From an uncultured Bacillota bacterium (GTDB lineage Bacteria > Bacillota > Clostridia > Christensenellales > UBA1242), in assembly GCA_945921365.1 (NCBI GenBank), contig CAMEKL010000007.1:1-11641 (forward strand): a DNA stretch of 11,641 bases, given 5' to 3'. Numbering within the stretch: the first letter of the stretch is position 1; the number at the start of each line of letters is the position of its first letter. Both the position numbers and the translations under genes were made by a program. A model generated the notes under the pieces. It had not been told where the DNA came from and searched no databases. It saw only the letters and a list, made by a program, of their open reading frames with translations. Positions 1 to 11,641 of this stretch are shown here, one piece after another.

Positions 1-293
1 GCATTTTCTGCATCAATAAATGCAGCTGTTCCACCATTTTTTTGTGCTTCTGCCAAGATTTGAAGTGAAACTGTTGTTTTACCAGAAGATTCTGGGCCAT
101 ATATTTCAATTATTCTTCCTTTTGGAACTCCACCAATGCCAAGAGCAATATCAAGAGACAAGCAACCTGTGCTTATAACATCAACTTTTTGAATTGGATT
201 ATCTCCAAGTTTCATAATTGCACCTTTTCCAAATTGTTTCTCAATTTGTGCAAGTGCTGCTTCAAGTGAATTTATTTTACTTTTATCTGCCAT
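1..293 (-). CDS. recA: RecA recombinase, N-terminal part (runs off the window edge)
   Basis: RecA forms the ATP-dependent filament on single-stranded DNA that drives homologous recombination. Only the first 97 codons are inside the window; the 3' end is cut off at base 1. The translation begins [20 protein letters not shown], continues with the family's [10 protein letters not shown] segment, and has the Walker A motif GPESSGKT at residues 66-73 followed by AFIDAEN. ATG is at 293-291, with an AAAAGGA ribosome binding site about 8 bases upstream. It follows cinA by 43 bases in the same direction, the usual cinA-recA order in Firmicutes. A -10 box lies in that spacer, so it may be transcribed both from the upstream operon and on its own. 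No LexA-type CGAAC-N4-GTTCG operator is visible in the spacer. Identification is secure. Confidence 0.96.
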
Positions 294-319
294 AACTTTT
301 TCCTTTTAAATATAGATTT

Positions 320-347
320 ATTATACTAAATTATTTTCACAAAGCAA
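320..347 (-). promoter_or_regulatory. Candidate promoter for recA
   Basis: Read on the minus strand there is a perfect TATAAT at 325-320, with a weak -35 candidate TTGCTT 16 bases upstream, inside the last codons of cinA. The predicted start of transcription, near 313, leaves a leader of about 20 bases that contains the recA ribosome binding site. The spacer has no hairpin, so read-through from cinA is also likely. Confidence 0.45.
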
Positions 348-1038
348 AATCTTTTTTGCGAAGTTTTTTAATAAGATAAAACATTGATGCCATGGTCACA
401 ATTTCAATTATTTCGCTTCTTGAGCCAACAAAATTGTTTTTGTAAACATCAATTTTGTTTCTATCTCCAATGGCAATATAGCATAGACCATTGTCTGGGT
501 TATTATCACCTCCAGCATAACCAGTTGTTGCAATAACAAGATTTGCTTCAGATTTATTTAAAAGCCCCTTTGCCATGTCATAGGTTGTTTGAGCACTAAC
601 CGCAGTGTTTGCTTTTAGAACTTCTTCACTGACATCAAGCATACGCATTTTTGCACTTTCAGTATACACAACATCTCCTTCAACAAGAACTTCGCTTGCA
701 CCAGGATTGTTTTTAACAAATGTTGCACATATATTTCCGGCAGTGATGGATTCTGCAACAGCAAGTTTAAGACCATTAAATTTTAGAAGTTGAAAAAGTG
801 CCTCAGAAAGTGATATATTTTCTTCTGCATATATAAAATTGCTCAATCTTTCAAAAATAGTGCTGGATAATCTATCAAAATTTAAATTTGAATCTTCTGC
901 TTCAAGTTTTAAAGAAGAATCACCTTGCCCTTCTGTTATTGTTATAAGCACACCATCGCTTTCAAGAAAAAGGTCTGAAAGAATAACTTTCATATCTTTT
1001 TCTCCTATTCCAAAAAGTTTAAATATGCTATTTTTCAT
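337..1038 (-). CDS. cinA: CinA-type nicotinamide-nucleotide amidase lacking the N-terminal COG1058 domain
   Basis: The C-terminal domain (about residues 75-233) is the PncC/CinA-C family, which hydrolyses NMN to nicotinate mononucleotide plus ammonia in pyridine-nucleotide salvage. Visible signatures are AESITAG (family AESxTGG, with the proposed nucleophilic Ser), NPGASE, VVYTESAK with a candidate catalytic Lys, AVSAQT and ATTGYAGGDN. Full CinA is roughly 410 residues; this one is 233. The first 70 or so residues (FKLFGIGEKDMK, then a VLITITEG stretch) match the FGIGES...L middle domain of full CinA, but the MoCF-like pyrophosphatase domain that normally precedes it is absent. ATG at 1038-1036 is chosen, with AGAAAGG 9 bases upstream; GTG at 1041 is possible. 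The start overlaps the pgsA stop by 11 bases, implying translational coupling. The stop is TGA. Confidence 0.88.
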   Translation of the reverse strand: MKNSIFKLFGIGEKDMKVILSDLFLESDGVLITITEGQGDSSLKLEAEDSNLNFDRLSSTIFERLSNFIYAEENISLSEALFQLLKFNGLKLAVAESITAGNICATFVKNNPGASEVLVEGDVVYTESAKMRMLDVSEEVLKANTAVSAQTTYDMAKGLLNKSEANLVIATTGYAGGDNNPDNGLCYIAIGDRNKIDVYKNNFVGSRSEIIEIVTMASMFYLIKKLRKKDFAL

Positions 1039-1612
1039 CACTTAAAACCTTTCTATTTTTAATTATATAGTTAACTCCAGAGGCAATTGTTAGCCCAACT
1101 GTTATTCCAAGAAGAACCCAGTTAAAAATTGAAAAGATTTCCATTCCAATGCCATTATAATCGGTGTTAAAAATAAGGAATGAAAGAAGCATCAAACATC
1201 CAAAGGAAACAAATTGAAAGTTTGTTTTAATTTTTCCAAACATATCGGCAGCAATAACATAGTTTTTTGTTGCAGCAATTTGCCTAAGTGCTGAAACAGC
1301 AAATTCTCTTGCCAGAATTATAATAGCGGCAATTGCTCCATATGGCATTGGAACAGTTCCATCACAAACAACAAGAATAAGCACAGTTGTTGTTAAAAGT
1401 TTGTCTGCAATTGGGTCCAAGAATTTACCAAGATTTGTTGTTAAGTTATATTTTCTTGCAATGTAACCATCAAAAAAATCTGTTATCGCGCAAATAACGA
1501 ACAAGCAAAGTGCAATAATTTTCCCAAATGGAACAAAAGATGCAAGATAGAAAAAAATTATAAGTGGAATTAAAATTATTCTAGAAAGTGTGATTTTATT
1601 TGGAAGATTCAT
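1028..1612 (-). CDS. pgsA: CDP-diacylglycerol-glycerol-3-phosphate 3-phosphatidyltransferase
   Basis: This inner-membrane enzyme makes phosphatidylglycerophosphate from CDP-diacylglycerol and glycerol 3-phosphate, the committed step to phosphatidylglycerol and cardiolipin. The 194-residue product has the usual family length. The CDP-alcohol phosphotransferase signature D-x2-DG-x2-AR-x8-G-x3-D-x3-D is complete: D45, D48-G49, A52-R53, G62, D66 and D70. The later PgsA-type blocks AREFAVSALRQIAA and FGKIKTNFQ are also present. Hydrophobic segments lie near residues 10-43, 72-102, 134-148 and 160-184. ATG at 1612-1610 has AAGGAG 7 bases upstream. It starts 10 bases after the rimO stop and runs into cinA, so it is an internal operon gene. 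Confidence 0.96.
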   Translation of the reverse strand: MNLPNKITLSRIILIPLIIFFYLASFVPFGKIIALCLFVICAITDFFDGYIARKYNLTTNLGKFLDPIADKLLTTTVLILVVCDGTVPMPYGAIAAIIILAREFAVSALRQIAATKNYVIAADMFGKIKTNFQFVSFGCLMLLSFLIFNTDYNGIGMEIFSIFNWVLLGITVGLTIASGVNYIIKNRKVLSDEK

Positions 1613-1622
1613 ATTTTTCTCC

Positions 1623-2966
1623 TTATCCCTTTATATTTGTTGTAGCAAAAAATGTATAATTTTTAAAGTCTAAAATCCTAACATCATAAAATTCACCAAC
1701 TTTAACATTTTCAGTGCAATCAATAAGAACACAAAAATCAACATTTGGACTCTGAAAGTTTGTTCTTGCAACAAACACTCCATTTTCTTCGTCAAACTCA
1801 TCAATCAAAACTTTATGTATTTCACCAATAAGACTTTCGTTGTTAGTTTTTGCAATCTCATTTTGAATTTTTTCAATTTTTTTAACTCTGCGCTTCTTAA
1901 TGAATTCTGGCACTTGCCCTTTTTGATAAAAAGCTTTTGTTCCTTCTTCCTTTGAGTAAGCAAAGAATCCAACTTGATGAAGTTTTGCTTCTTTTAAAAA
2001 CTTTACCAGTTTTTTAAATCTAGAAGATGTTTCCTCTGGATAACCAATGATAAACGTTGAACGAATCGTTAGTTTTGGATAGTTAGTTTTGATGTTCTCA
2101 ATAAGTTTTCTTGTTCTTTCTTCATCAATTCTTCTATTCATGCTTTTAAGAATTTTGTCATCAATATGTTGAAGTGGAATATCAAGATATTTACAAACTT
2201 TTGGGTTATTATTGATCTCATCAAGAAGTTCATCAGAAGCAAGCTCTGGATATAAATAGTGAAGCCTAATCCAAGAGATATTTTTAATTTTTGACAGTTC
2301 TTTAATAAGTTCAACAAGTCTATATTTTTTATAAAGGTCAATTCCGTATCTTGTTACATCTTGTGCAACCAAAATTAGTTCTTTTGCTCCACCGCAAGCA
2401 AGTTCCTTTGCTCTTTTTATAATCTGCTCAAAAGGAGTTGACTTATATCTTCCTCTAATTCTTGGAATTGTGCAATAAGAGCATCCATTATTGCAACCAT
2501 CTGCTATTTTAATGTATGCATAGTGTTTTGGCAAAAGAGTTTTTTGTGAAACCTCAATTTGTTTGCAGTTATATTCAACGCCATAGCATGAACAAATTTT
2601 GCTTACAATTTTAGTGTTATCTTTAATTTGAACAAAACAGTCAACTTCTGGAAGATAACTTTGAAGTTCTTCAAGATATCTTGAATTTAAACAGCCAGTA
2701 ACAATAATTTTTTCAAGTTTTTCTGCTTTTTTTAGGCTTATCATTTCAATTATGTTGTCTATTGACTCTTTTCTGGCAGGCAAAATAAAGGCACAAGTGT
2801 TGATTATAACAATGTTTGCATCTTCAATGCTTGTGTGTTTAATGCCAAATTTTTCAATCAGATACATCATCTCTTCAAGGTCAACGCGATTTTTATCGCA
2901 CCCCAAAGAAATGTATGCAATTTTTTTATTTTTCACATCTTCAAGTGTTATATTTTCTCTATCCAT
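1623..2966 (-). CDS. rimO: Ribosomal protein S12 methylthiotransferase RimO
   Basis: This radical-SAM methylthiotransferase adds a methylthio group to the conserved Asp of ribosomal protein S12. From the ATG at 2966 it has 447 residues. Domains in order: an N-terminal UPF0004 domain with three cluster cysteines (C23 in ISLGCDKNRVD, C58 in NTCAF, C92 in TGCLNS); the radical-SAM motif CNNGCSYC (C158, C162, C165); and a C-terminal TRAM domain from about residue 380. The SLGCxKNxVD block and CxIPRIRG after the SAM cysteines favour RimO over the tRNA enzyme MiaB. An upstream in-frame TTG at 2978 overlaps the Shine-Dalgarno itself, so the ATG is the better start. It overlaps the ftsK stop by 8 bases, with coupled translation. 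Confidence 0.94.
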   Translation of the reverse strand: MDRENITLEDVKNKKIAYISLGCDKNRVDLEEMMYLIEKFGIKHTSIEDANIVIINTCAFILPARKESIDNIIEMISLKKAEKLEKIIVTGCLNSRYLEELQSYLPEVDCFVQIKDNTKIVSKICSCYGVEYNCKQIEVSQKTLLPKHYAYIKIADGCNNGCSYCTIPRIRGRYKSTPFEQIIKRAKELACGGAKELILVAQDVTRYGIDLYKKYRLVELIKELSKIKNISWIRLHYLYPELASDELLDEINNNPKVCKYLDIPLQHIDDKILKSMNRRIDEERTRKLIENIKTNYPKLTIRSTFIIGYPEETSSRFKKLVKFLKEAKLHQVGFFAYSKEEGTKAFYQKGQVPEFIKKRRVKKIEKIQNEIAKTNNESLIGEIHKVLIDEFDEENGVFVARTNFQSPNVDFCVLIDCTENVKVGEFYDVRILDFKNYTFFATTNIKG

Positions 2967-5730
2967 TCGCTCCTCCAAAGAGTTCTTCCCATTGCTCCAT
3001 TGTTATATATACAGAACGTGGCTTACTTCCAACAGAAACATAACCTGCTTCAACCATTTGGTCTAATATTCTTGCTGCACGTGGATATCCAACTTCAAAT
3101 TTTCTTTGAATCATAGTTATTGAGGCTTGTCCATTTTCAATGATATATTTAAGAGCAAGTGGCAATAATTCATCAAAATTTGAAGAACCAGAGCCATCTA
3201 AATTCATATTTTGCTTGCCAGAAGCAGAAAGAGCCTTGCCAATTTCTGCATCATATTCACTTGGATTGTTTGCTTTAACAAATTCAACAACTTGTTCAAC
3301 TTCTTTTGTTGAAACAAAGCATCCTTGAATTCTTGTTGGTTCTGGCCTATCATTAGGGAAATAAAGCATATCCCCCTTTCCCAAAAGTTTTTCAGCGCCA
3401 GCTTGGTCTAAAATTGTTTTAGAATCAACATAACTCATAACGGCAAAAGCTATTCTTGATGGGAAATTTGCCTTAATTGTTCCAGTTATAACATTAACAG
3501 AAGGTCTTTGTGTTGCCAAAATTAAGTGAATTCCACATGCTCTAGCCTTTGCAGCAAGCCTTGCAATTTTATCTTCCAAATCTTTTTTTGCTTGAAGCAT
3601 AAAATCAGCAAGCTCATCAATAATAATAACAATAAGTGGAAGTTTGTCATTTTCACCTGAAAGAACGACTTCGCTGTTGTTATATTCTTCCAAATTTCTT
3701 GCTCTAACATCTTGGAAAAGAGAAAATCTTCTTTCCATTTCAACTATAGCCCAATTAAGTGCATTGATTGCCTTATCTATTTCAGAAATAATTCTCGGTT
3801 GCAAAAGGTGTGGAAGTCCATCATAAATTGAAAATTCAACACGTTTAGGGTCAATTAAAATAAGCCTTAAATCTTCTGGAGACATTCTGTATATAAGCGA
3901 AATAATAATAGAATTTAAGCAAACGCTTTTACCACTTCCGGTTGTTCCTGCAACGAGAAGATGAGGCATTTTTGCAAGGTTACAGAGTTTTACATCACCA
4001 TTTATATCTTTTCCAAGTGCGAAAGTTAGTGGTGCTTTTGCTTCCGCAAACTCTTTTGAAGAGATGATTTCTTTAAGCCCAATTGTTGTGATTTCTTCAT
4101 TTGGAACTTCGATTCCAACTGCACTACGTCCTAAAATTGGCGCTTCAATTCTTATATTTCCATTTGAAGCAATTGAATATGCTATATCATCTTGATGGTT
4201 TAAAATTTTCTTAACAGAAACACCAACAGGCATTTCAAGTTCATATCTAGTAACTGCTGGACCAATAACAATTCTAACAACTTTTGCTGGAATGTTAAAG
4301 TTTAGAAGGCTTTCTTCAAGTTTTTGTGCAGATTCTTGAACTGTTGATTGAATGTTTGTGTTGTTTGTTGGGTAAAACTTAAGAAAATCGACTGGTGGTT
4401 TAACATAAGTTGGTGGTTTTTTATAAAAGTTTTTTTGACTTTTAATTTGTTCCTCATGTTTCTTTTCTGCTCCTGCAATCTCAAGTTGAACAGGAGTTTT
4501 TTCTTGTTTTGTTGTATTTATGTTTATATCCAGATTTGAATTTGCTTTTGCACCTTCGATAATTTTGTCAATAAACAAATCATTTTCTTCTGAATCGTCT
4601 TTTTCGAGATCAACAAAATCTTGTGAATGTTTTTCATCTTTAACATTTTTGTTATTCTCTGTTCTGTTTTTAAACAGCATAAAGTTTGAGGTTTCATCAT
4701 GAATGACCTTCTCTGGTTGTTTAATTTCATTAGATTCGTTCTTTATTTCGAGAATTTTTTTATTAACATCGTCTAAAAAGTCACTATTTTCATCTTTAAA
4801 AGATGAAACTCTTGAACTATTAACAACATCTAAGAATTTTGGTGGAGTTAGAATATAGTCTTTTCTTGAAATTTCATTATTTAAAAGTTTTTTTTCAAGT
4901 GGATCTCTAGATTCTTGCATATTATTTTTTAATTTAAAGTTTTCACTGCTTTCAACTACACCGCTGCTTTTAACAAGGCCAAGCTTTTTCTTTGCGGAAA
5001 TATTTTTTTCATCTAATTCTTCTTCAATTTTGCCATCTAAAACAATTTTAGCTTTTTCTTTATGTTTTGGTTTTTCTTCGTTTTTGACAAAAGTTACTTC
5101 CTCGCCCTCTCTTCCAATTAAATTGCCTTCAGAATCAATAAGCCATTCGCCCTTTTTTTCTTTCGCTTTTTCTTGTTTAATATGAACAGTGTCAATTTCT
5201 TCTTTTTTTTGTTTTTTTGTTATAACAACACCATTTTCAGCACTCTTTTTAACAAAAATCAAATAATCTATAATCAACCAAGAAAAAGTTATAAGCGTAA
5301 TTGAAAAAACAACATAAACTCCAATATTATTTAAAGTGTATTTAATTGGTGAAATAAATATTCCAACAATAATTCCACCTGGTGTTAACTGCCTTGTGTA
5401 GCAAGATGCAAGAAACTCAAAAAATCCACCCTGAAAATTATGCATTATTGCCATTTGAATTATTGCAAGCAAACTAATAATTGCACACGTAATTAAAACA
5501 AGATATTTTGCAGGTAAAATATATTTACGCTTGTTTAAAAGTGCAATCCCAATAATGAAAGTTAAAATAAAAAGTGGATAAGAAAAAAGGCCAAAAGTTC
5601 CAAGCAAAAAATGCTTTAAAAACCCTATAAGCCCTGTAAAAAGCGGAATAAAACATATTGTTGAAATTGTAATTAAAATAATTCCAACAAGTTTTTTTAT
5701 ATTTTTTCTGTTAAATTTATATTTGGCCAC
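2959..5730 (-). CDS. ftsK: FtsK/SpoIIIE-family DNA translocase
   Basis: This membrane-anchored hexameric ATPase pumps chromosomal DNA through the closing septum, or into the forespore in spore formers. About 923 residues from the GTG at 5730. N-terminal hydrophobic segments (about residues 12-165) can form four or so membrane spans. A long charged linker rich in Lys, Glu and Asn follows (about 170-440). The motor then has Walker A GTTGSGKS (about 595-602) and Walker B LIVIIIDELADF (about 699-710). The C-terminal gamma winged-helix domain (about 850-919) contains EVGYPRAARILDQMVEAGYV, as in SpoIIIE/FtsK members that read oriented DNA motifs. The TTG at 5751 is rejected because it sits next to the promoter and lacks an RBS. 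FtsK versus SpoIIIE cannot be settled from the sequence alone. It heads the rimO-pgsA-cinA-recA run. Confidence 0.95.
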   Translation of the reverse strand: MAKYKFNRKNIKKLVGIILITISTICFIPLFTGLIGFLKHFLLGTFGLFSYPLFILTFIIGIALLNKRKYILPAKYLVLITCAIISLLAIIQMAIMHNFQGGFFEFLASCYTRQLTPGGIIVGIFISPIKYTLNNIGVYVVFSITLITFSWLIIDYLIFVKKSAENGVVITKKQKKEEIDTVHIKQEKAKEKKGEWLIDSEGNLIGREGEEVTFVKNEEKPKHKEKAKIVLDGKIEEELDEKNISAKKKLGLVKSSGVVESSENFKLKNNMQESRDPLEKKLLNNEISRKDYILTPPKFLDVVNSSRVSSFKDENSDFLDDVNKKILEIKNESNEIKQPEKVIHDETSNFMLFKNRTENNKNVKDEKHSQDFVDLEKDDSEENDLFIDKIIEGAKANSNLDININTTKQEKTPVQLEIAGAEKKHEEQIKSQKNFYKKPPTYVKPPVDFLKFYPTNNTNIQSTVQESAQKLEESLLNFNIPAKVVRIVIGPAVTRYELEMPVGVSVKKILNHQDDIAYSIASNGNIRIEAPILGRSAVGIEVPNEEITTIGLKEIISSKEFAEAKAPLTFALGKDINGDVKLCNLAKMPHLLVAGTTGSGKSVCLNSIIISLIYRMSPEDLRLILIDPKRVEFSIYDGLPHLLQPRIISEIDKAINALNWAIVEMERRFSLFQDVRARNLEEYNNSEVVLSGENDKLPLIVIIIDELADFMLQAKKDLEDKIARLAAKARACGIHLILATQRPSVNVITGTIKANFPSRIAFAVMSYVDSKTILDQAGAEKLLGKGDMLYFPNDRPEPTRIQGCFVSTKEVEQVVEFVKANNPSEYDAEIGKALSASGKQNMNLDGSGSSNFDELLPLALKYIIENGQASITMIQRKFEVGYPRAARILDQMVEAGYVSVGSKPRSVYITMEQWEELFGGANG
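2967..2976 (-). promoter_or_regulatory. Ribosome binding site that sets the rimO start
   Basis: GGAGGA at 2976-2971 (minus strand) lies 4 bases from the ATG at 2966. It is contained in the last codons of ftsK. An alternative TTG start at 2978 would include this site in its own first codons, which argues against that start. Confidence 0.75.
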
Positions 5731-5741
5731 AAAATCCCCTT
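5731..5741 (-). promoter_or_regulatory. Ribosome binding site that sets the GTG start of ftsK
   Basis: AAGGGG at 5741-5736 on the minus strand stands 5 bases before GTG 5730-5728. The same AAGGGG element precedes trxA and the first YugP gene at similar spacing, which supports this start over the TTG at 5751. Confidence 0.7.
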
Positions 5742-5755
5742 TTATAAACAAGAGA

Positions 5756-5764
5756 ATTATAGCA
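5756..5764 (-). promoter_or_regulatory. Extended -10 promoter for ftsK operon
   Basis: The minus strand reads TGC-TATAAT at 5764-5756, a perfect -10 hexamer with the TGn extension. No good -35 is seen at 16-18 bases, as is common for extended -10 promoters. Transcription would start near 5749, about 19 bases before the GTG, leaving room for the AAGGGG site. The spacer 5765-5837 is almost pure A/T, with no clear intrinsic terminator after the upstream gene. Confidence 0.6.
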
Positions 5765-5837
5765 CAAATATATTAAAAATAAAATAGATATTTGTAAATT
5801 TTTAATAAAATATTTTTTTTGTTCAATTTAAATTAAA

Positions 5838-6529
5838 TTAAGAGAAAAATGCTTCATTAACTTTCGCAATTTCAACAGCTTGCGTTAAAAGAGTTATATC
5901 CAAATCTATAATTGGAAAATGCTCTATATCTTCTTTAAAAGAAAGAGTTTGATATGTGAAGTTAATGTTATTCTCACTGTATGTTTCAACAGCTAAGAAA
6001 CTGACAACATCATTTTTTGAAACAACTTTCAAGTCTTCTGCATTTGCTGTTTCACTACTATTTGTCCATGCATTTAAGCTTCCAACATAATATGCCCATT
6101 CGCCGTCAAAAAGCCAATTTTCATTAAAAACAATTGGAGTTCTTGTGTTAAATGTTTTATCAAGTTCTTCATCTGTTAAAACAGCGTTCGTGCTTGCATG
6201 TTTTAATATGATTTTTGCTCTAATATAAAATTCGTCTGTTGTTAAAGATTCAAAAGTTGGATTAACAACAAAAATCTTTTCATGGCTTCCAAAATTTGTT
6301 TCATTGATTCTGCTTTTTGTTGGAATAGACATAACATCATCAAGGGCTGAAATATCATGTTTCAAAAGCCAAAATTCATTAGTTATTCCATCTTGTTCAA
6401 CCGTTTCACCAAAATCAACCAAAATTCCTGGAGTTAGATTAACCCTACCAGTTAGTTTTCTTCTTGTTCCAAAATAAGCAAAGCAGAAATTAAGCTTAAA
6501 AATAAGGTTTTCTTGTTTTCTTTCATCAT
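5838..6529 (-). pseudogene. TasA/CalY-like exported protein (SipW-type signal peptide), frameshifted
   Basis: The coding sequence is split between two frames. The start ATG (6529, or the adjacent 6526) follows AGGGGA and encodes a typical signal peptide, MMKENKKTLFLSLISAL, that hits TAA at 6454-6452. From about 6479 the other frame reads AYFGTRRKLTGRVNLTPG and stays open to 5838. One missing base near 6479 would join them into a 230-residue protein. Signal peptide, AYF, then GxVxLTPGIxVDF is the pattern of TasA/camelysin-type proteins processed by SipW. So is the body: VNPTFESLTTDEFYIRAKI, DGEWAYYVG and a C-terminal LDITLLTQAVE segment. Such proteins form biofilm fibres or surface proteins. 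No good start exists in the long frame; a TTG at 6422 with a weak AGGA would give a cytoplasmic 194-residue fragment. It could be a real pseudogene, phase variation, or a base error. No SipW gene is in the window. Confidence 0.65.
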
Positions 6530-6550
6530 ATTCCCCTATTACGATTTTAG

Positions 6551-6578
6551 TTTATCAATTTTTAGTTAAAATTGTCAA
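6551..6578 (-). promoter_or_regulatory. Promoter for the TasA-like gene
   Basis: A perfect -35 TTGACA lies at 6578-6573 on the minus strand, with a GATAAA -10 (4 of 6) 16 bases downstream at 6556-6551. It sits just after the terminator of the preceding unit and about 20 bases before the first ATG, so this gene forms its own transcription unit. Confidence 0.5.
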
Positions 6579-6614
6579 ACAAAAGAAGAAAAAATCTTGC
6601 AAATTTGCAAGATT
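6579..6614 (-). terminator. Intrinsic terminator after the DivIVA-like gene
   Basis: A perfect 22-base palindrome at 6593-6614 (arms AATCTTGCAAA and TTTGCAAGATT) overlaps the stop codon of the DivIVA-like gene. In the minus-strand transcript it forms a stem of 8 or more pairs, followed by a T-rich tract (TTTTTTCTTCTTTT) at 6592-6579. This is a classical Rho-independent terminator. Confidence 0.85.
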
Positions 6615-7434
6615 ATTGATTGTTGATAAAAAAATCAAATGATTTCATAATAACTTCTAGGTCATCTTTTGGATTTATACAGTCTTCTAAATCAAATCCA
6701 CTATCTTCTTTTTTTGCTGATGAGAAATTAAATGTGGTGTTGTCTGATTCCATATTGTCACTATTAAGAAACTTGTCAACAAGGTTTTCATATTTATCAT
6801 CTTTTTCTAAGTTCATATTTACAATTGGCTTGATTTTTATTGTTTTTTCTTCAAGTTTACTTAATTCAGTTTTATCTGACGATTTAAATTTTGCTTTTCT
6901 TTCTATAATCAATTTATCATCACTTTCATCAATAAAATTTGCATTTTCAAGCTCTTTTTGCTTTTTAATTTCATTTCTTTTTCCAGTTAGTTTATCAAGA
7001 AGCGACCTAATTGGATCTGTTGCAGGATTTGTTTTCATAATCTCAACATTAAATTCATCTTTAAGTGCTTTTTGAATAGAAAGTTTTAATGAATCAATGT
7101 CTTCTCTAACACTTGGAATCTTAATCATGGGATATTTTTTTGTCATTTCATTGAGAAGCATTTCCCATTTCATATACAAAATGTTCATCTGTTCAATTTT
7201 AAGTTTATATATATTTTTTGAACTTTCTTCTATCTCTTTTGCTTTATCAACAGCTGCAGTGAGAGCAAGAGCAATTGAATTACTGCTTGACTGAAGTTTT
7301 GCAATTTGAATTTTAAGTTCGTCAATTTGCTTGTTTTTTTCTTCAATTTTCTCAGCATTATCTCTTTCTATTTTTGATAAATATTCATCAACTTCAACTG
7401 TATTATATCCATTTTTCTGATTTGAAAAGTTCAT
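6613..7434 (-). CDS. DivIVA-domain coiled-coil protein
   Basis: DivIVA/GpsB-type proteins are polar or septal scaffolds built from an N-terminal DivIVA motif and coiled coil. This 273-residue protein opens MNFSNQKNGYNTVEVDEYLSKI, which matches the GYxxxEVDxFL core, then has a Lys/Glu-rich coiled coil to about residue 80. A second helical region (about 80-130) and a charged, probably disordered tail follow, ending in a short hydrophobic patch (LEVIMKSFDFF). The Phe-Arg that precedes GYD in B. subtilis DivIVA and inserts into the membrane is replaced here by Lys-Asn. ATG at 7434 has GAGGA 4 bases upstream inside the previous gene, and overlaps that gene's TGA as ATGA, so the two are translationally coupled. 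An upstream TTG or other start is not needed. The exact role is unknown. Confidence 0.72.
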   Translation of the reverse strand: MNFSNQKNGYNTVEVDEYLSKIERDNAEKIEEKNKQIDELKIQIAKLQSSSNSIALALTAAVDKAKEIEESSKNIYKLKIEQMNILYMKWEMLLNEMTKKYPMIKIPSVREDIDSLKLSIQKALKDEFNVEIMKTNPATDPIRSLLDKLTGKRNEIKKQKELENANFIDESDDKLIIERKAKFKSSDKTELSKLEEKTIKIKPIVNMNLEKDDKYENLVDKFLNSDNMESDNTTFNFSSAKKEDSGFDLEDCINPKDDLEVIMKSFDFFINNQ

Positions 7435-7928
7435 ATCTTCCTCATATTTTTTAATATTGTGTTTACAGCACTTATTATAACAACAACGAACAAAAAAGAA
7501 ATGCAAGTTATTGCTAGCCACAGTGAAATATATCCACTAATATAAACAAATATGATTATAGCAAACAAAGTTAAAGTTGTAAATAATTTAAAGTGAAAAA
7601 TTTGTCGAAAAAAAACGAACATGATAAATGAGGACAAAGAAAAGCACATCAGAAATCCAGAAATGCAATAAAATGTTGTTAAATTGTAGTTTGAAATTAA
7701 AAAAGAAAACACTCCACAAAGCATCAAAAGTGTTCCAATCCAAAGGTTTGTGTTAATTCCATAAGAAACAAATCTTGGAAAAACAAGAAGCGATAAAAGA
7801 ATTAAGGCAAAAGAGAACCAATTTTCATAAAATGGGAATATAAAATTAAAGCATGATAAAATTATGAGAGTAAAATAAATTATTGGAAGAATTACATAAT
7901 ATAACCTAAGCCAAATAGATGTTTTCAT
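7431..7928 (-). CDS. Small multi-pass membrane protein, not recognised
   Basis: I do not recognise the family. From the ATG at 7928 it encodes 165 residues, mostly hydrophobic, with about six predicted membrane helices at roughly residues 8-33, 37-57, 62-80, 86-108, 114-132 and 135-155, and short polar loops. It has no obvious catalytic motif. A TTG at 7946 would add six residues, but that start falls in the terminator's T tract. No Shine-Dalgarno precedes the ATG; the leader is A/T only and begins right after the preceding terminator stem. A possible -10 (CATAAT, 7963-7958) lies within that stem with a poor -35, so expression may come from it or from read-through. The TGA stop overlaps the next ATG (ATGA), tying it to the DivIVA-domain protein and suggesting the two products work together at the membrane. 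Confidence 0.7.
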   Translation of the reverse strand: MKTSIWLRLYYVILPIIYFTLIILSCFNFIFPFYENWFSFALILLSLLVFPRFVSYGINTNLWIGTLLMLCGVFSFLISNYNLTTFYCISGFLMCFSLSSFIMFVFFRQIFHFKLFTTLTLFAIIIFVYISGYISLWLAITCISFLFVVVIISAVNTILKNMRKI

Positions 7929-7943
7929 GTTTAATATTTTTAA

Positions 7944-7978
7944 CAAAAAAATAAAACATTATGCCTATCATAATGTTT
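7944..7978 (-). terminator. Intrinsic terminator after the Rho-like gene
   Basis: A perfect 10-base inverted repeat (AAACATTATG at 7954-7963, CATAATGTTT at 7969-7978) with a 5-base loop lies 3 bases past the TAA of the Rho-like gene. In the minus-strand transcript it is followed by TATTTTTTTG at 7953-7944. The plus-strand side (ATTTTAA) is poorer in T, so it mainly serves the minus strand. Confidence 0.82.
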
Positions 7979-7981
7979 ATT

Positions 7982-9082
7982 TTAACCTAATTCTTTTTTT
8001 AGCATTTCTGATTCAGTGCTTTCTTCACCAATTTCAACGTATTCAACATTTAAATACGTTTCATCTGAAATTGCCCTTGCACTTCCTAATATTCTTTTTA
8101 AAAGCTGAATTGAGTTTGGAGATCTTGAAATGCTTGTTTTTTCCTTAAAGCAAAAATACATATCGAGATTTTTTACTAAACTTAAAGGATTCAAAATATA
8201 AATAACAACCTTTTTGCCATCTTTAAGCATGCTTTCAGAAAAATTTAATGTGTTAACAACATTATTATAAATCAGCCTTAAATCTTCGCCATATCTTGCA
8301 ACAAAACAGTTCAAATTTGTTGAACCTTGAATAATAAACAAATCTTTTGGCATAAGTTCACCACCAACAATAATGTTCAAATATTCACTGCTTGCATTAA
8401 CAATATTGTCAACAAATTCACTTTCTGTTTTAAAATTAAATTTGTTTACGCTTCCAATAATGACATCTCTTCCAAAAATATTTATTTTCTTATCTGTTAA
8501 AATTGCTTTGTCTATGTCAAGTTTTTTTCTTTCTTCTGGAAGATTTTCAATTTTAATGTTATTTATTGTTAAAACTTTCTTAACAACATAGTTGTCAACG
8601 TTTGAGTTGTCGCATATTGCAACAATCTTATCTCCTTGCCTAAGTTCATATATTGCAACATATTCTGGTGGCATTTCAATGAGAGTTAAATTATCTAAAC
8701 TTAGATGATTGTTGTAAAAATATAATTTATTATTAATTTCAATTAAGCATCCTTCAACACTAACTTGGTTAGAGAAAAAATTTGGAAGGATTGTTTGATT
8801 GAGCGTATCTAGTTTATTAACCTTAAATGCTGAAATATTATATGCATCATTTTCATTTTGAACTGTTAAAGACTTTCCTAAAGATTTTGGAGGTCTTCCT
8901 TTCCTTAGATTTGCAACATTAGGCTGTATTTCTCCAGATTTTATCTTTAAAATTGTATCACAAAGCTCAGACCTTAGTTTTGTGGTTGGAGATTTAACAC
9001 CAACTTGCCTTGCAAGTTCTCTAAGCTCATATATTCCTAAATTTGAAAGAGTTTCTTTGGAAATTTTTGAAATTTTAAACAT
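7982..9082 (-). CDS. Rho-like protein with degenerate ATPase domain
   Basis: 366 residues from the ATG at 9082; true Rho is about 420 or longer. Residues 10-55 match the Rho N-terminal SAP-like domain (YELRELARQVGVKSPTTKL, then ILKIKSGE), followed by an AT-hook-like KGRPPKS. Residues about 107-175 resemble Rho's RNA-binding cold-shock fold (EGCLIEINN, YELRQGDKIVAI, KKVLTINN, ending LPEERKKLD). The rest aligns by eye with Rho's motor: LKDGKKVVIYILNPLSL against VExGKDVVILLDSITRL, and LLKRILGSARAI against PKRFFGAARNI. The P-loop is gone (IIGSVNKFNFKTE where Rho has VAPPKAGKTTL), the Walker B Asp is Asn, and the arginine-finger region is missing. It should not hydrolyse ATP, and may be an RNA-binding regulator or a partner of a true Rho. 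It is monocistronic, with its own promoter and terminator. No ribosome binding site precedes the ATG; a GTG at 9100 lies upstream of the -10 box and so is unlikely. Confidence 0.7.
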   Translation of the reverse strand: MFKISKISKETLSNLGIYELRELARQVGVKSPTTKLRSELCDTILKIKSGEIQPNVANLRKGRPPKSLGKSLTVQNENDAYNISAFKVNKLDTLNQTILPNFFSNQVSVEGCLIEINNKLYFYNNHLSLDNLTLIEMPPEYVAIYELRQGDKIVAICDNSNVDNYVVKKVLTINNIKIENLPEERKKLDIDKAILTDKKINIFGRDVIIGSVNKFNFKTESEFVDNIVNASSEYLNIIVGGELMPKDLFIIQGSTNLNCFVARYGEDLRLIYNNVVNTLNFSESMLKDGKKVVIYILNPLSLVKNLDMYFCFKEKTSISRSPNSIQLLKRILGSARAISDETYLNVEYVEIGEESTESEMLKKELG

Positions 9083-9091
9083 AACAATGTT

Positions 9092-9119
9092 ATTATACAC
9101 AATTTTTTACAAAATTCAA
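9092..9119 (-). promoter_or_regulatory. Promoter of the Rho-like gene, giving a near-leaderless mRNA
   Basis: A perfect TATAAT at 9097-9092 (minus strand) has a -35 TTGAAT (4 of 6) 16 bases upstream at 9119-9114. Transcription should start near 9085, only about 3 bases before the ATG at 9082. A/T tracts immediately upstream (9123-9146) could act as an UP element. Confidence 0.6.
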
Positions 9120-9122
9120 ACA

Positions 9123-9145
9123 TTTTTTTAAAATATTTAAAAAAA
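9123..9145. repeat. All-A/T inverted repeat upstream of the Rho-like promoter
   Basis: TTTTTTTAAA at 9123-9132 and TTTAAAAAAA at 9136-9145 are perfect inverted arms with a 3-base centre. They lie between the first YugP gene's stop and the Rho-like promoter. With no G/C pairs it would be a weak terminator in either direction. It may instead serve as promoter A-tract (UP element) sequence. Confidence 0.35.
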
Positions 9146-9164
9146 ATAGACAAATTTAGACATT

Positions 9165-9884
9165 TTAATCCCTTCTTCTAGCGAAAACAAGAATAAATCT
9201 AAGCAAATTTAAAATTGAAACGATAAGTGCGGCAACATAAGTTAAAGCAGCTGCGGTTAAAACTTTTTTGCAACCTTCAAGTTCTGATTCGTCAAGTATA
9301 TTTAACTCACGAAGAATTTTAACAGACCTTTTTGAAGCATTAAATTCAACTGGAAGCGTTGCAAGATTAACTAAAACTGCTACGCCAAAAAATGCAATTC
9401 CCGCCCAAATAAAAATTTGTCCTAGTGTTCCATCAAGATAAACAAAATTGAATATTATGCCAATTATAACAAGTGGCCAAAGAAAAATTGAGGTTACATT
9501 AGAAAAATGGATTGCTAAAGTTCTAAGTTTTGATGGAAAATATCCTTTATTGTGTTGAAGTGCGTGCCCCACTTCATGCATAGCAATGCCAAGTGCAGCA
9601 ACTGAAGTTGAATTTGCAATTTCGCTTGACAATCTAACAACATTTCTTGTTGGGTCATAATGATCTGTTAGTTTTCCAGAGATTTCTTCCAGTTTAACAT
9701 TTGAAAGTCCTGCACCATCAAGAACTTGTTTAACTGCATCTTTTGCATAAATATTTTTTCTTGAACTAATTTTGCTGTATTCATTATAAGTTTGATTTAC
9801 CTTATACTGTGCATATACAGCAAAAATGATGCCAGGAAGCAAAATTATTCCCATCAATATATATTCAAAATATGCAAACGACAT
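9165..9884 (-). CDS. YugP-type membrane zinc metallopeptidase, copy 1
   Basis: 239 residues of the YugP family (neutral zinc metallopeptidase, Zn_peptidase_2), membrane proteins whose substrates are not known. An N-terminal membrane helix (about 5-27) is followed by the family block GLSNVKLEEISGKLTDHYDP. The zinc motif HEVGHALQH lies at about 103-111: two His ligands and the catalytic Glu. Two hydrophobic segments (about 130-150 and 155-178) come next, then PVEFNASKRS, whose Glu is a plausible third ligand. A last hydrophobic segment follows (about 210-233). The length is typical. ATG at 9884 has AAGGGG 6 bases upstream and starts 15 bases after the stop of the second YugP gene, so the pair is one transcription unit. 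All motif residues look intact, so it is probably active. Confidence 0.9.
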   Translation of the reverse strand: MSFAYFEYILMGIILLPGIIFAVYAQYKVNQTYNEYSKISSRKNIYAKDAVKQVLDGAGLSNVKLEEISGKLTDHYDPTRNVVRLSSEIANSTSVAALGIAMHEVGHALQHNKGYFPSKLRTLAIHFSNVTSIFLWPLVIIGIIFNFVYLDGTLGQIFIWAGIAFFGVAVLVNLATLPVEFNASKRSVKILRELNILDESELEGCKKVLTAAALTYVAALIVSILNLLRFILVFARRRD

Positions 9885-9899
9885 AAATTTCCCCTTTTA

Positions 9900-10610
9900 T
9901 TAAAATAGTTTAGTTTTTTTGGAGAGAAACGTCCACCAAAGAAGTGCTCTAAAAAAATCTCCAACATAAGTTAGGAGCGCGGCATTTAAAAGATCTTTTG
10001 CAATTTTATATTCTTCATCATCTACAATCTGCATGTCTGTTAAAATTTTAAGCCCACGTTTTGACGCATCTTTTTCAACTGGGATTAAAAGAAGTTTAAA
10101 CAGAATTGAAATAAAGAGAATTATAGCGCTCACACCAATAAAGATAAATCCAACAAAAGTTAAACTTGGAATAACAAAAACAAGAAACAAGCCAACAAGA
10201 ATGATTGGCATAATGAAATATCCAAGAATTCTTGTTATTTTTGCGAGCCTTAAATTGAATTTAAACTTAGAAAAATTGCTTAAGTGTTGCATTGCATGAC
10301 CAAATTCATGTGCAACAACAGCAAGAGATGCAACAGAGGCAGAATCACAAGTCTCATCAGAGAGAACAACTGTTTTTGCTCTTGAACTATATGCATCGGT
10401 TAAGTAACCAGCAGTTCTTGCAACAGCAATTCTTCCACCAGTGATTTCATTCGATACTTTTAATGCAAATTGTCCCCCTGTAAGTTTTGCATAACAAGGG
10501 ATTTTGCTATATTTTTCATATGTTTCCAAAAGTTGTGAACCAGAATAGTTTGCAATTGGAAGACCAATCAACAAAAAAACCACAACAATTGCAACAACAA
10601 CCCATATCAT
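9900..10610 (-). CDS. YugP-type membrane zinc metallopeptidase, copy 2
   Basis: 236 residues, a divergent paralogue of its downstream neighbour and in the same family. It has an N-terminal membrane helix (about 1-23), YEKYSKIPC (the equivalent of YNEYSKISS in copy 1), then GRIAVARTAGYLTDAY. The zinc motif HEFGHAMQH follows at about 101-109, then two hydrophobic segments (about 130-150 and 152-175) and PVEKDASKRGLKIL with the likely third ligand Glu. The two copies share these blocks but little else at a glance, so the duplication is old. It is first in a two-gene unit. No Shine-Dalgarno precedes the ATG at 10610. A TATATT -10 ends 8 bases before the ATG, so the mRNA may be leaderless. Confidence 0.9.
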   Translation of the reverse strand: MIWVVVAIVVVFLLIGLPIANYSGSQLLETYEKYSKIPCYAKLTGGQFALKVSNEITGGRIAVARTAGYLTDAYSSRAKTVVLSDETCDSASVASLAVVAHEFGHAMQHLSNFSKFKFNLRLAKITRILGYFIMPIILVGLFLVFVIPSLTFVGFIFIGVSAIILFISILFKLLLIPVEKDASKRGLKILTDMQIVDDEEYKIAKDLLNAALLTYVGDFFRALLWWTFLSKKTKLF

Positions 10611-10617
10611 AACTATG

Positions 10618-10645
10618 AATATAACTCAATTTTAAAAAAACTCAA
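10618..10645 (-). promoter_or_regulatory. Candidate promoter of the YugP pair, predicting a leaderless mRNA
   Basis: TATATT (5 of 6) at 10623-10618 with TTGAGT (4 of 6) 16 bases upstream at 10645-10640. The predicted transcription start, near 10611, falls one base before the ATG at 10610. The -35 overlaps the possible terminator of trxA. Confidence 0.4.
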
Positions 10646-10658
10646 ACTAAATTAGTTT
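10634..10658 (-). terminator. Weak intrinsic terminator candidate after trxA
   Basis: Inverted arms AAACTAA and TTAGTTT (10644-10658) overlap the trxA stop and are followed on the minus strand by GAG and seven Ts (10640-10634). The stem has only one G-C pair per arm and almost no loop unless the inner pairs open, so it is weak. Confidence 0.3.
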
Positions 10659-10966
10659 AAATTTGAAAGAACAAAATTCAAAATTTCGCTTTTCTGCCTT
10701 AATCCAACAATTTTTTCCTTTTCTTTTCCATTAGCAAACAAAATCATTGTTGGAACACTCATGATTCCAAATTTTTTAGCAAGGTCATAATTTTCATCAA
10801 TATCAACTTTTGCAACTTCAAATTTTCCCTCGCCACTTTTTTCAACTTCTTCTAAAATTGGAGAAAGCATTCTGCATGGTCCGCACCAAGTTGCAAAAAA
10901 ATCAACAAGAACAGGTTTTTCGCCACTAATAAGTTCATTAAATTCATTTTCATTTAAAATTTTCAT
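10652..10966 (-). CDS. trxA: Thioredoxin
   Basis: A small cytoplasmic dithiol oxidoreductase that reduces protein disulfides and is itself reduced by thioredoxin reductase, which is not in this window. It has 104 residues from the ATG at 10966, the standard thioredoxin length. The active site is FFATWCGPCRML (WCGPC near residues 27-31). The buried Asp is in VLVDFF, the DIDEN strand-turn is present, and the cis-Pro motif is SVPTMILF. The start has AAGGGG 5 bases upstream; starts further upstream, in frame to 11014, overlap the previous gene and add a non-family extension. It begins 16 bases after the RseC-like gene, in the same unit, which fits a redox role for both. Confidence 0.95.
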   Translation of the reverse strand: MKILNENEFNELISGEKPVLVDFFATWCGPCRMLSPILEEVEKSGEGKFEVAKVDIDENYDLAKKFGIMSVPTMILFANGKEKEKIVGLRQKSEILNFVLSNLN

Positions 10967-10982
10967 ATTTTCCCCTTTAATA

Positions 10983-11333
10983 TTATTCAGCATAGAGTAT
11001 AGTTTTATTATCAATTTTGTTTATATAGAACAATTTAACAAAAATAACAGCCAAAAGTGTTCCAACCCCCATACAAGAAGCAATCAAATAATGATAAAGA
11101 GACGCTCTAAAAACAAAACCAATGCCAAATCCAATTAAAAACATAACAAGTGGAAGAAGAAACATAACAATTTGAATTAAGTTTGTGTTAATATTTTTTG
11201 AAAAAACAACAGCTGTATCCCCTTCAACTTTTGTTGATTTAAGTTTAACAACTCTTTTTTTATTCTCAAATTCTACAAGTGCATTTTTTTTATAAATTTC
11301 TTTAATAATTGCATTATCACTTATTTTTTCCAT
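10983..11333 (-). CDS. RseC/MucC-like two-helix membrane protein
   Basis: 116 residues in the layout of the RseC/MucC (SoxR-reducing/sigma-E regulator) family: an N-terminal soluble part of about 55 residues, rich in beta strands (NALVEFENKKRVVKL, then KVEGDTAVV), followed by two membrane helices (about 57-77 and 84-105). The segment NLIQIVMFLLPLVMFLIGFG is the typical LLPLxxLLxG first helix. The cysteine cluster usual in the cytoplasmic domain of RseC is absent; the only Cys is in the second helix. Family members in Clostridia are often near Rnf or redox genes; here the neighbour is thioredoxin. ATG at 11333 has GGGAG 5 bases upstream. A GTG at 11345 lies before this site and is rejected. 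The function here is uncertain, and the assignment rests on architecture and the GD-V...LLPL pattern. Confidence 0.62.
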   Translation of the reverse strand: MEKISDNAIIKEIYKKNALVEFENKKRVVKLKSTKVEGDTAVVFSKNINTNLIQIVMFLLPLVMFLIGFGIGFVFRASLYHYLIASCMGVGTLLAVIFVKLFYINKIDNKTILYAE

Positions 11334-11349
11334 TTTATCTCCCACTAAT

Positions 11350-11377
11350 AATCTAACACAAAACTAATTTTTATCAA
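11350..11377 (-). promoter_or_regulatory. Candidate promoter for the RseC-like/trxA pair
   Basis: The minus strand has TTGATA (5 of 6) at 11377-11372, a 16-base gap, then TGT-TAGATT (extended -10, hexamer 4 of 6) at 11355-11350. It overlaps the last codons of tcdA. Read-through from tcdA across the 30-base spacer is equally possible. Confidence 0.35.
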
Positions 11378-11641
11378 AACAAATTAACTTATTTACAACA
11401 AATGCAGAAATCAAACATGCACTCATTGCTGGATAGTAGGCAATTGAACCAATTTGCCTTTCATTTGACACATTTTCAATGTTTAAACTTTTAACAGGAA
11501 TATTCTCACAAACACAAACATCAAGAAAATCAACATTTTTTTCTCTTAATTTTTTTCTAAGCACCCTCGCAAGCCCATCATTATTTGTTCTGTATATTTC
11601 TGTAATCTTAAAGGAACGCATCTCAAATCTCTTTCCAGCTC
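11364..11641 (-). CDS. tcdA: tRNA threonylcarbamoyladenosine dehydratase TcdA, C-terminal part (runs off the window edge)
   Basis: TcdA (CsdL/YgdL, YrvM in Bacillus) is an E1-like ThiF-family ATPase that dehydrates t6A37 in tRNAs to the cyclic form ct6A. The window holds the last 92 residues; the frame is open to base 11641, and the Met at 11621 is internal. The segment AGKRFEMRSFKITEIYRT matches the family block GxxxDPxxFxVxDIxxT. It is followed by ARVLRKKLREKNVD (family DPLARxLRxxLRKxGI) and the C-terminal GSIAYYPAMSACLISAFVVNKL, corresponding to GSxxFVPxxxGLxxAxxVI. The ATP-binding N-terminal domain is outside the window, so its integrity is unknown. The stop is TAG, 30 bases before the RseC-like gene. 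Confidence 0.82.
   Translation of the reverse strand, partial: AGKRFEMRSFKITEIYRTNNDGLARVLRKKLREKNVDFLDVCVCENIPVKSLNIENVSNERQIGSIAYYPAMSACLISAFVVNKLICFDKN

Follow-up and report, generated by a model that had tools for sequence, protein, structure and literature searches.

Rho is described in textbooks as an ATP-driven hexameric helicase that is either present or lost. It uses its N-terminal part to dock on RNA polymerase and NusG. Here we analyse a Rho-derived gene of an uncultured Bacillota bacterium (GTDB order Christensenellales, class Clostridia), found in a stretch of 11,641 nucleotides that we call the window (contig CAMEKL010000007.1 of assembly GCA_945921365.1, positions 1 to 11,641 of the forward strand). 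Sequence comparisons indicate that the gene is itself the lineage's Rho orthologue, inherited by vertical descent, in which the ATPase motor has almost certainly been lost, and on balance we favour the interpretation that this orthologue has turned into an ATP-independent nucleic-acid-binding protein.

The closest described system is Rho (TIGR00767; E. coli, T. maritima, T. thermophilus, M. tuberculosis), which is the best match of the window protein both by structure and by profile. The two share the domain order SAP-like, cold-shock and RecA-like, whereas the window protein is without the P-loop, DERPEE, the Walker B Asp and the last ~83 residues, and carries GRP behind its first domain. Subunits of F1/V-type ATPases, which we take to be without a Rho-type N-terminal part, have structure Z-scores below all Rho entries (n = 24) among the matches listed. 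RHON1, a plant protein likened here by description only, presumably has a motor-free architecture without a RecA core. It is described from plant chloroplasts in PMC13289151, and the title of a paper cited there presents it as an RNA-binding protein. The Rho-less Bacilli are, as here, a Bacillota lineage without canonical Rho; rho is reported lost in them (PMC13323073), whereas here a Rho-derived gene is kept and no relaxed purine bias is observed. No paper on a P-loop-less Rho was recognised by title and start of abstract in searches of the open-licence PMC literature.

Domain organization and relationship to Rho

The gene and its domains are as follows:

7982..9082, minus strand: Rho orthologue, almost certainly motor-less, 366 amino acids (aa), open reading frame (ORF) from the ATG at 9082
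8885..9067, minus strand: SAP-like (Rho_N-type) N-terminal domain, aa 6-66, with KGRPPK at its end, assigned from a weak Rho_N match, conservation and isoelectric point (pI)
8774..8884, minus strand: variable, probably disordered linker, aa 67-103, assigned from the per-residue confidence of the predicted structure (pLDDT) and low identity
8555..8773, minus strand: cold-shock-type domain with the fold of the Rho primary site, aa 104-176, assigned from predicted beta strands and the Rho alignment
7985..8554, minus strand: RecA-like core without P-loop, DERPEE or Walker B Asp, aa 177-366, assigned from the motif table and structure alignment

This ORF, described in an earlier note made from the DNA alone, is present at the position given there, and a GTG is also in frame at 9100, beyond its ATG. 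A profile search bears out both the cold-shock fold and the RecA-like core, and the predicted structure places these folds in the Rho arrangement, its alignment to E. coli Rho running to residue 336 and then ending. Profile and structure agree on a match to Rho beyond the N-terminal domain, as the earlier note had proposed from alignments by eye (GKKVVIYILNPLSL and KRILGSARAI), which match our multiple alignment.

Scanned singly against Pfam and NCBIfam, the window protein gave sub-threshold Rho matches only. The NCBIfam Rho models reached E-values of 5.8e-4 and 0.0042 over residues 9-192, far below cut-off, with a TIGR00767 score of 16 bits against the curated 509.45, and a phmmer search of the PDB with the single sequence found no match, so that a profile was required. 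On the N-terminal domain Pfam Rho_N (E 0.036) is outranked by DUF7440 (E 0.013), both below cut-off; the assignment of this domain to the SAP-like domain of Rho, also made earlier, thus has the weak Rho_N match in its favour, which alone stays below cut-off. The basic motif that had been announced as RGRPPK-type is present as KGRPPK, and aa 1-66 have a pI of 10.2.

The N-terminal domain is the most conserved part among 55 relatives: pairwise identity averages 0.59 there, with 24 of its 61 columns at >=90%, against 0.29-0.32 for the other parts. The linker, at 0.29, has pLDDT values below 50 at residues 65-84 and 86-101, and in the cold-shock domain G111, G150 and D151 are invariant and Y121 is kept at 93%.

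Loss of the motor

Motifs were read from an alignment of 185 sequences. In the window protein IIGSV stands where Rho has GKGQR, the Walker A P-loop GK[S/T] is absent at the aligned position, ELMPKD replaces DERPEE, and the Walker B Asp is changed to Asn at position 298 (VVIYILN). The RecA-like core stops short of the part with the R-loop and the arginine finger, both of which we call missing from the place that we take them to occupy at the C-terminus of Rho; the tail after the SLTI-equivalent position has 25 residues, versus 112 in the canonical reference G208. From the alignment and the predicted structure, the residues and the C-terminal part that serve ATP hydrolysis and translocation are judged to be gone. 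Together with the profile, this upholds the earlier description of a Rho-derived protein made ATPase-dead by loss of the P-loop, the Walker B Asp and the C-terminal part.

Distribution and orthology

Our family sample comprises 147 genomes of the window's GTDB family, a large group of uncultured, small-genome bacteria. A Rho-derived open frame was extracted and aligned from 137 of them, and figures per family proteins refer to these 137, some of which are fragments cut by contig ends; the ten genomes without an aligned protein are G012, G014, G015, G025, G045, G079, G086, G109, G139 and G140. Rho above the NCBIfam cut-off was found in 0/147 family genomes, a sample in which several have a listed completeness of 99-100%: G034, G059, G118 and G021, among others, are put at 100% and yet have none, while the window's own assembly is 61% complete.

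More widely, 144 of the 248 genomes of an order sample are above the Rho cut-off, with 0/17 from the window's family, as are 82 of 98 in a class sample. The 93 class genomes outside the order comprise 81 above cut-off, ten with weak matches only (E 4.7e-19 or worse), which we read as ATPase relatives, and two with none. Since none of them is intermediate, the eroded, graded Rho looks, in the samples searched, like a trait of the order. A motif scan retrieved 60 named relatives, every one an uncultured metagenome-assembled genome whose title reads Clostridia, Clostridiales, Firmicutes, Bacillota or Christensenella; deer colon or caecum is mentioned in three of the titles.

The main groups of the Rho and RpoB trees agree, so that transfer is not required to account for the pattern; the Rho tree has long branches, and 12 of its 38 inner branches have less than 80% support. 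A place beside YpeB is common to P-loop-bearing (G041, G065, G085) and P-loop-less (G001, G033) forms, which supports orthology. The earlier note had called the gene a paralogue that could compete with or modulate a true Rho, for instance by joining its ring, and had proposed a search for a canonical rho; because no second Rho above cut-off was found across the family, the trees are concordant and the place beside YpeB is shared, we do not regard it as a paralogue.

Graded and repeated loss of the P-loop

GK[S/T] is kept in 3/137 family proteins (G041, G065 and G085), all of genus g2, and is lost in the five other extracted members of that genus and in 5/5 sampled members of the window's genus. 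Orthologues with an intact GKT, which the earlier note had named as evidence to the contrary, thus occur, among the family proteins, in one distant genus only. In genus g41 (6/6 extracted: L135, L136, L137, L152, L156, L213) the P-loop lysine is replaced by Gln, giving SGQ[T/N], and the Walker B Asp is kept, a form that perhaps binds nucleotide without hydrolysing it. Outside the family the P-loop is lost in G284 (family f15), G174 (f29), five f32 genomes and three f4/g45 genomes; f15 also includes canonical Rhos and forms in which DERPEE is altered while GK[S/T] stays intact.

Losses were counted on an RpoB tree of 58 rows retrieved by phmmer (58/58 found, with G065, G345 and G000 partial). 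With regain disallowed, 11 losses of the lysine are needed, also with forks below 80% support collapsed, and it changed at least 7 times under unordered parsimony, these being counts from one marker gene with the root set among six canonical genomes, with the P-loop of 11 canonical rows assumed from the Rho score (G165 and G222 of these being below cut-off), and with no row for G033 (a fragment, unused) or G085 (no match), which both matter to the count. Degenerate f15 members have Rho branches of 0.53-0.94, versus 0.19-0.21 in the canonical sister pair G160/G379; two other, more distant canonical f15 rows have 0.45 and 0.56, and the RpoB branches of the same seven f15 genomes are 0.04-0.10 long.

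As a separate observation, the RpoB open frames of the window's family have 1224-1296 aa (L276-L290, L314, L316-L321), versus 1352-1374 aa in f15 (L266, L267, L269-L275), and because its frames are shorter the RNA polymerase of the family may lack an insert.

Selection on the gene

The ratio of nonsynonymous to synonymous substitution rates (dN/dS) was determined for nine within-genus family pairs, some sharing a member and several with dS above 1 or saturated; the window's genus contributes a single pair (G061/G036), and the window gene is in none of the nine. The ratio is 0.05-0.13 over the whole gene; taken alone, the N-terminal part gives 0.01-0.12 and the dead motor part 0.05-0.18. Among its family relatives the gene is therefore under strong purifying selection, including the decayed motor region, where the earlier note had suggested looking for constraint, and its view that the gene is maintained and not decaying is supported. 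The proteins P0002 and P0006, respectively 79% and 73% identical to the window protein overall, show domain-wise constraint (N-terminal domain 95/93%, cold-shock 92/84%, RecA 75/65%, linker 49/59%).

Possible function and alternative explanations

An ATP-independent nucleic-acid-binding role is probable, with an even chance that RNA rather than DNA is the main target. The cold-shock domain would still bind nascent RNA, its grip aided by the basic SAP-like domain and the AT-hook-like KGRPPK motif, and the RecA-type scaffold would be kept for folding or self-association. Such a protein would act by remaining bound, not by pulling RNA, and could either pause RNA polymerase or coat and silence untranslated or antisense RNA. 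The N-terminal part might dock on RNA polymerase and NusG; NusG is found in 56/58 family genomes (57 chosen for >=95% completeness), being missed in the window's incomplete genome and in G136. The second option of the earlier note, a regulator in a lineage without Rho activity, fits best, RNA binding being its putative role.

Several observations weigh against this interpretation. The Rho-derived ORFs of genera g4, g7 and g42 (290-325 aa; L169, L171, L174, L175, L182, L183, L189) seem, when read by eye, to be without the SAP-like N-terminal domain, so this part is not universal, some members having apparently lost it. In addition, loss of Rho is predicted to relax the purine bias of genes, and a weaker bias is reported for Rho-less Bacilli (PMC13323073). 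The mean coding purine content is 0.551 in 132 family genomes and 0.532 in 43 canonical ones (Mann-Whitney p 1.5e-6), a difference opposite in direction to that of the Rho-less Bacilli, and thus no indication of a vanished Rho-type pressure. It is 0.536 in 16 other degenerate genomes, and within f15 the canonical (0.514-0.548) and degenerate (0.535-0.543) ranges overlap. This comparison is confounded by GC content (0.34 in the family, 0.53 in canonical and 0.49 in other degenerate genomes) and used ORF-length gene calls on short stretches that include the rho-like and rpoB genes, leaving out genomes with less than 2,500 bases of ORFs. Relaxed avoidance of Rho is thus unsupported by the purine-bias test.

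Of the alternatives, a mainly DNA-binding, nucleoid-type protein, whose SAP-like domain and GRP core (which we take to be an AT-hook) grip the A/T-rich minor groove while the rest is scaffold, is unlikely, and survives best. The N-terminal domain is basic, as its pI indicates, and GRP occurs within the first 150 residues of 114/137 family proteins, as GRPx[KR] in 104/137, where 7/9 f15 proteins have RGAPxK (G330 has only GAPPK and G308 RGAHPK). Four genomes (G009, G031, G091, G102) that have the full-length gene also encode short SAP-like ORFs with GRP/GRK/GRC-type motifs and no Rho core, 108-195 aa from stop to stop:

L229:4630-4953 (G009): short SAP-like ORF
L230:3914-4276 (G031): short SAP-like ORF
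L231:3953-4303 (G091): short SAP-like ORF
L232:3689-4273 (G102): short SAP-like ORF

However, the cold-shock and RecA-like parts are likewise under selection, and GRP is missing in 23/137, including 5/5 of genus g7 and 7/8 of g14, and is present in some canonical Rhos of other families (three times in G188), so that the motif, whose AT-hook function is our assumption, is no proof of a new function.

That nucleotide is still bound or hydrolysed at an unrecognised site, the protein being an ATP-driven terminator, is improbable. The unrelaxed purine bias would agree with it, as would the Glu at the fifth DERPEE position in 84/137 family proteins and the Asp at the Walker B position in 50/137 (85% of the 55 aligned relatives at window position 298), but the P-loop and the C-terminal arginine-finger region are missing and the window protein itself has Asn at 298. 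A decaying relic without function would explain the eroded motor motifs, the longer branches of degenerate f15 members relative to G160/G379, and members of only ~300 aa, of which contig ends truncate a few; we consider it very improbable, and contradicted for the family, given a Rho-derived frame in 137/147 genomes, the dN/dS of 0.05-0.13 and the domain-wise constraint. The main idea of the earlier note, that the protein modulates in a dominant-negative way a true Rho from another locus, would suit the kept RecA-like fold and the incompleteness of the window assembly, but is least probable of all with 0/147 family genomes having Rho above cut-off, including 99-100% complete ones.

We thus retain the reading of an ATP-independent Rho orthologue, and its conservation after repeated loss of the motor may mean that Rho has a useful motor-free job. 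We lean slightly towards the broader proposal that Rho has a selectable motor-free function: in one mostly uncultured Clostridia order the P-loop would have disappeared in 7 to 11 independent events (RpoB tree, 58 genomes) while the protein remained under purifying selection, and the outcome would be a new class of Rho-derived factors that bind nucleic acids without ATP, mostly with an AT-hook-like motif in the window's family. A family that retains a motor-less Rho, with catalytic sites grading from intact to fully eroded, makes the role of Rho before or without ATP-driven translocation testable, with RNA polymerase binding, RNA coating and silencing as candidate motor-free roles. For genome surveys, it means that homology-based calls of rho presence or absence can mistake a motor-dead protein for Rho.

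Genomic neighbourhood

The earlier note had described a stand-alone gene with its own promoter and terminator, which did not hold: no terminator-like site was found in 7300-9400, promoter-like sites there number 15 against 12.2 +/- 3.6 in shuffles, and the gene belongs to a series of ORFs on one strand, spaced by 82 and 35 bases. The downstream ORFs are:

7431..7946, minus strand: membrane-protein-like ORF, next downstream, sharing 36% identity across 151 positions with its positional counterpart in G061
6613..7521, minus strand: DivIVA-domain ORF (Pfam DivIVA E 2.6e-4, TIGR03544 E 0.0011, both below cut-off)

As listed they overlap by 91 bases, the GTG start of the DivIVA ORF probably being placed too far upstream. 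ORFs of 165 aa occupy the same downstream place in G036, G081 and G101 (by position only), and the BLAST cluster of the DivIVA ORF recurs downstream of the gene in the four other genus members. In the window's genus the gene is thus followed by a membrane ORF of 165-171 aa and a DivIVA-domain ORF, a place unlike the YpeB locus. Upstream of the gene in the window lie two tandem Zn_peptidase_2 (PF04298) ORFs, at 9165-9884 and 9900-10610.

In many genera of family f1 the Rho-derived gene adjoins the sporulation and germination genes ypeB, sleB and spoIIR. With neighbours annotated from one representative per cluster, 49 genomes from 16 genera have a YpeB homologue close to the gene, which in 46 of them is immediately upstream and on the same strand; a SleB-type hydrolase is close by in 30 genomes and a SpoIIR gene in 40. 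In G061 (L017) an S30AE-type ribosome-hibernation gene and a class II fructose-bisphosphate aldolase gene lie upstream of the Rho-derived gene, an aldolase near rho being known from other Bacillota.
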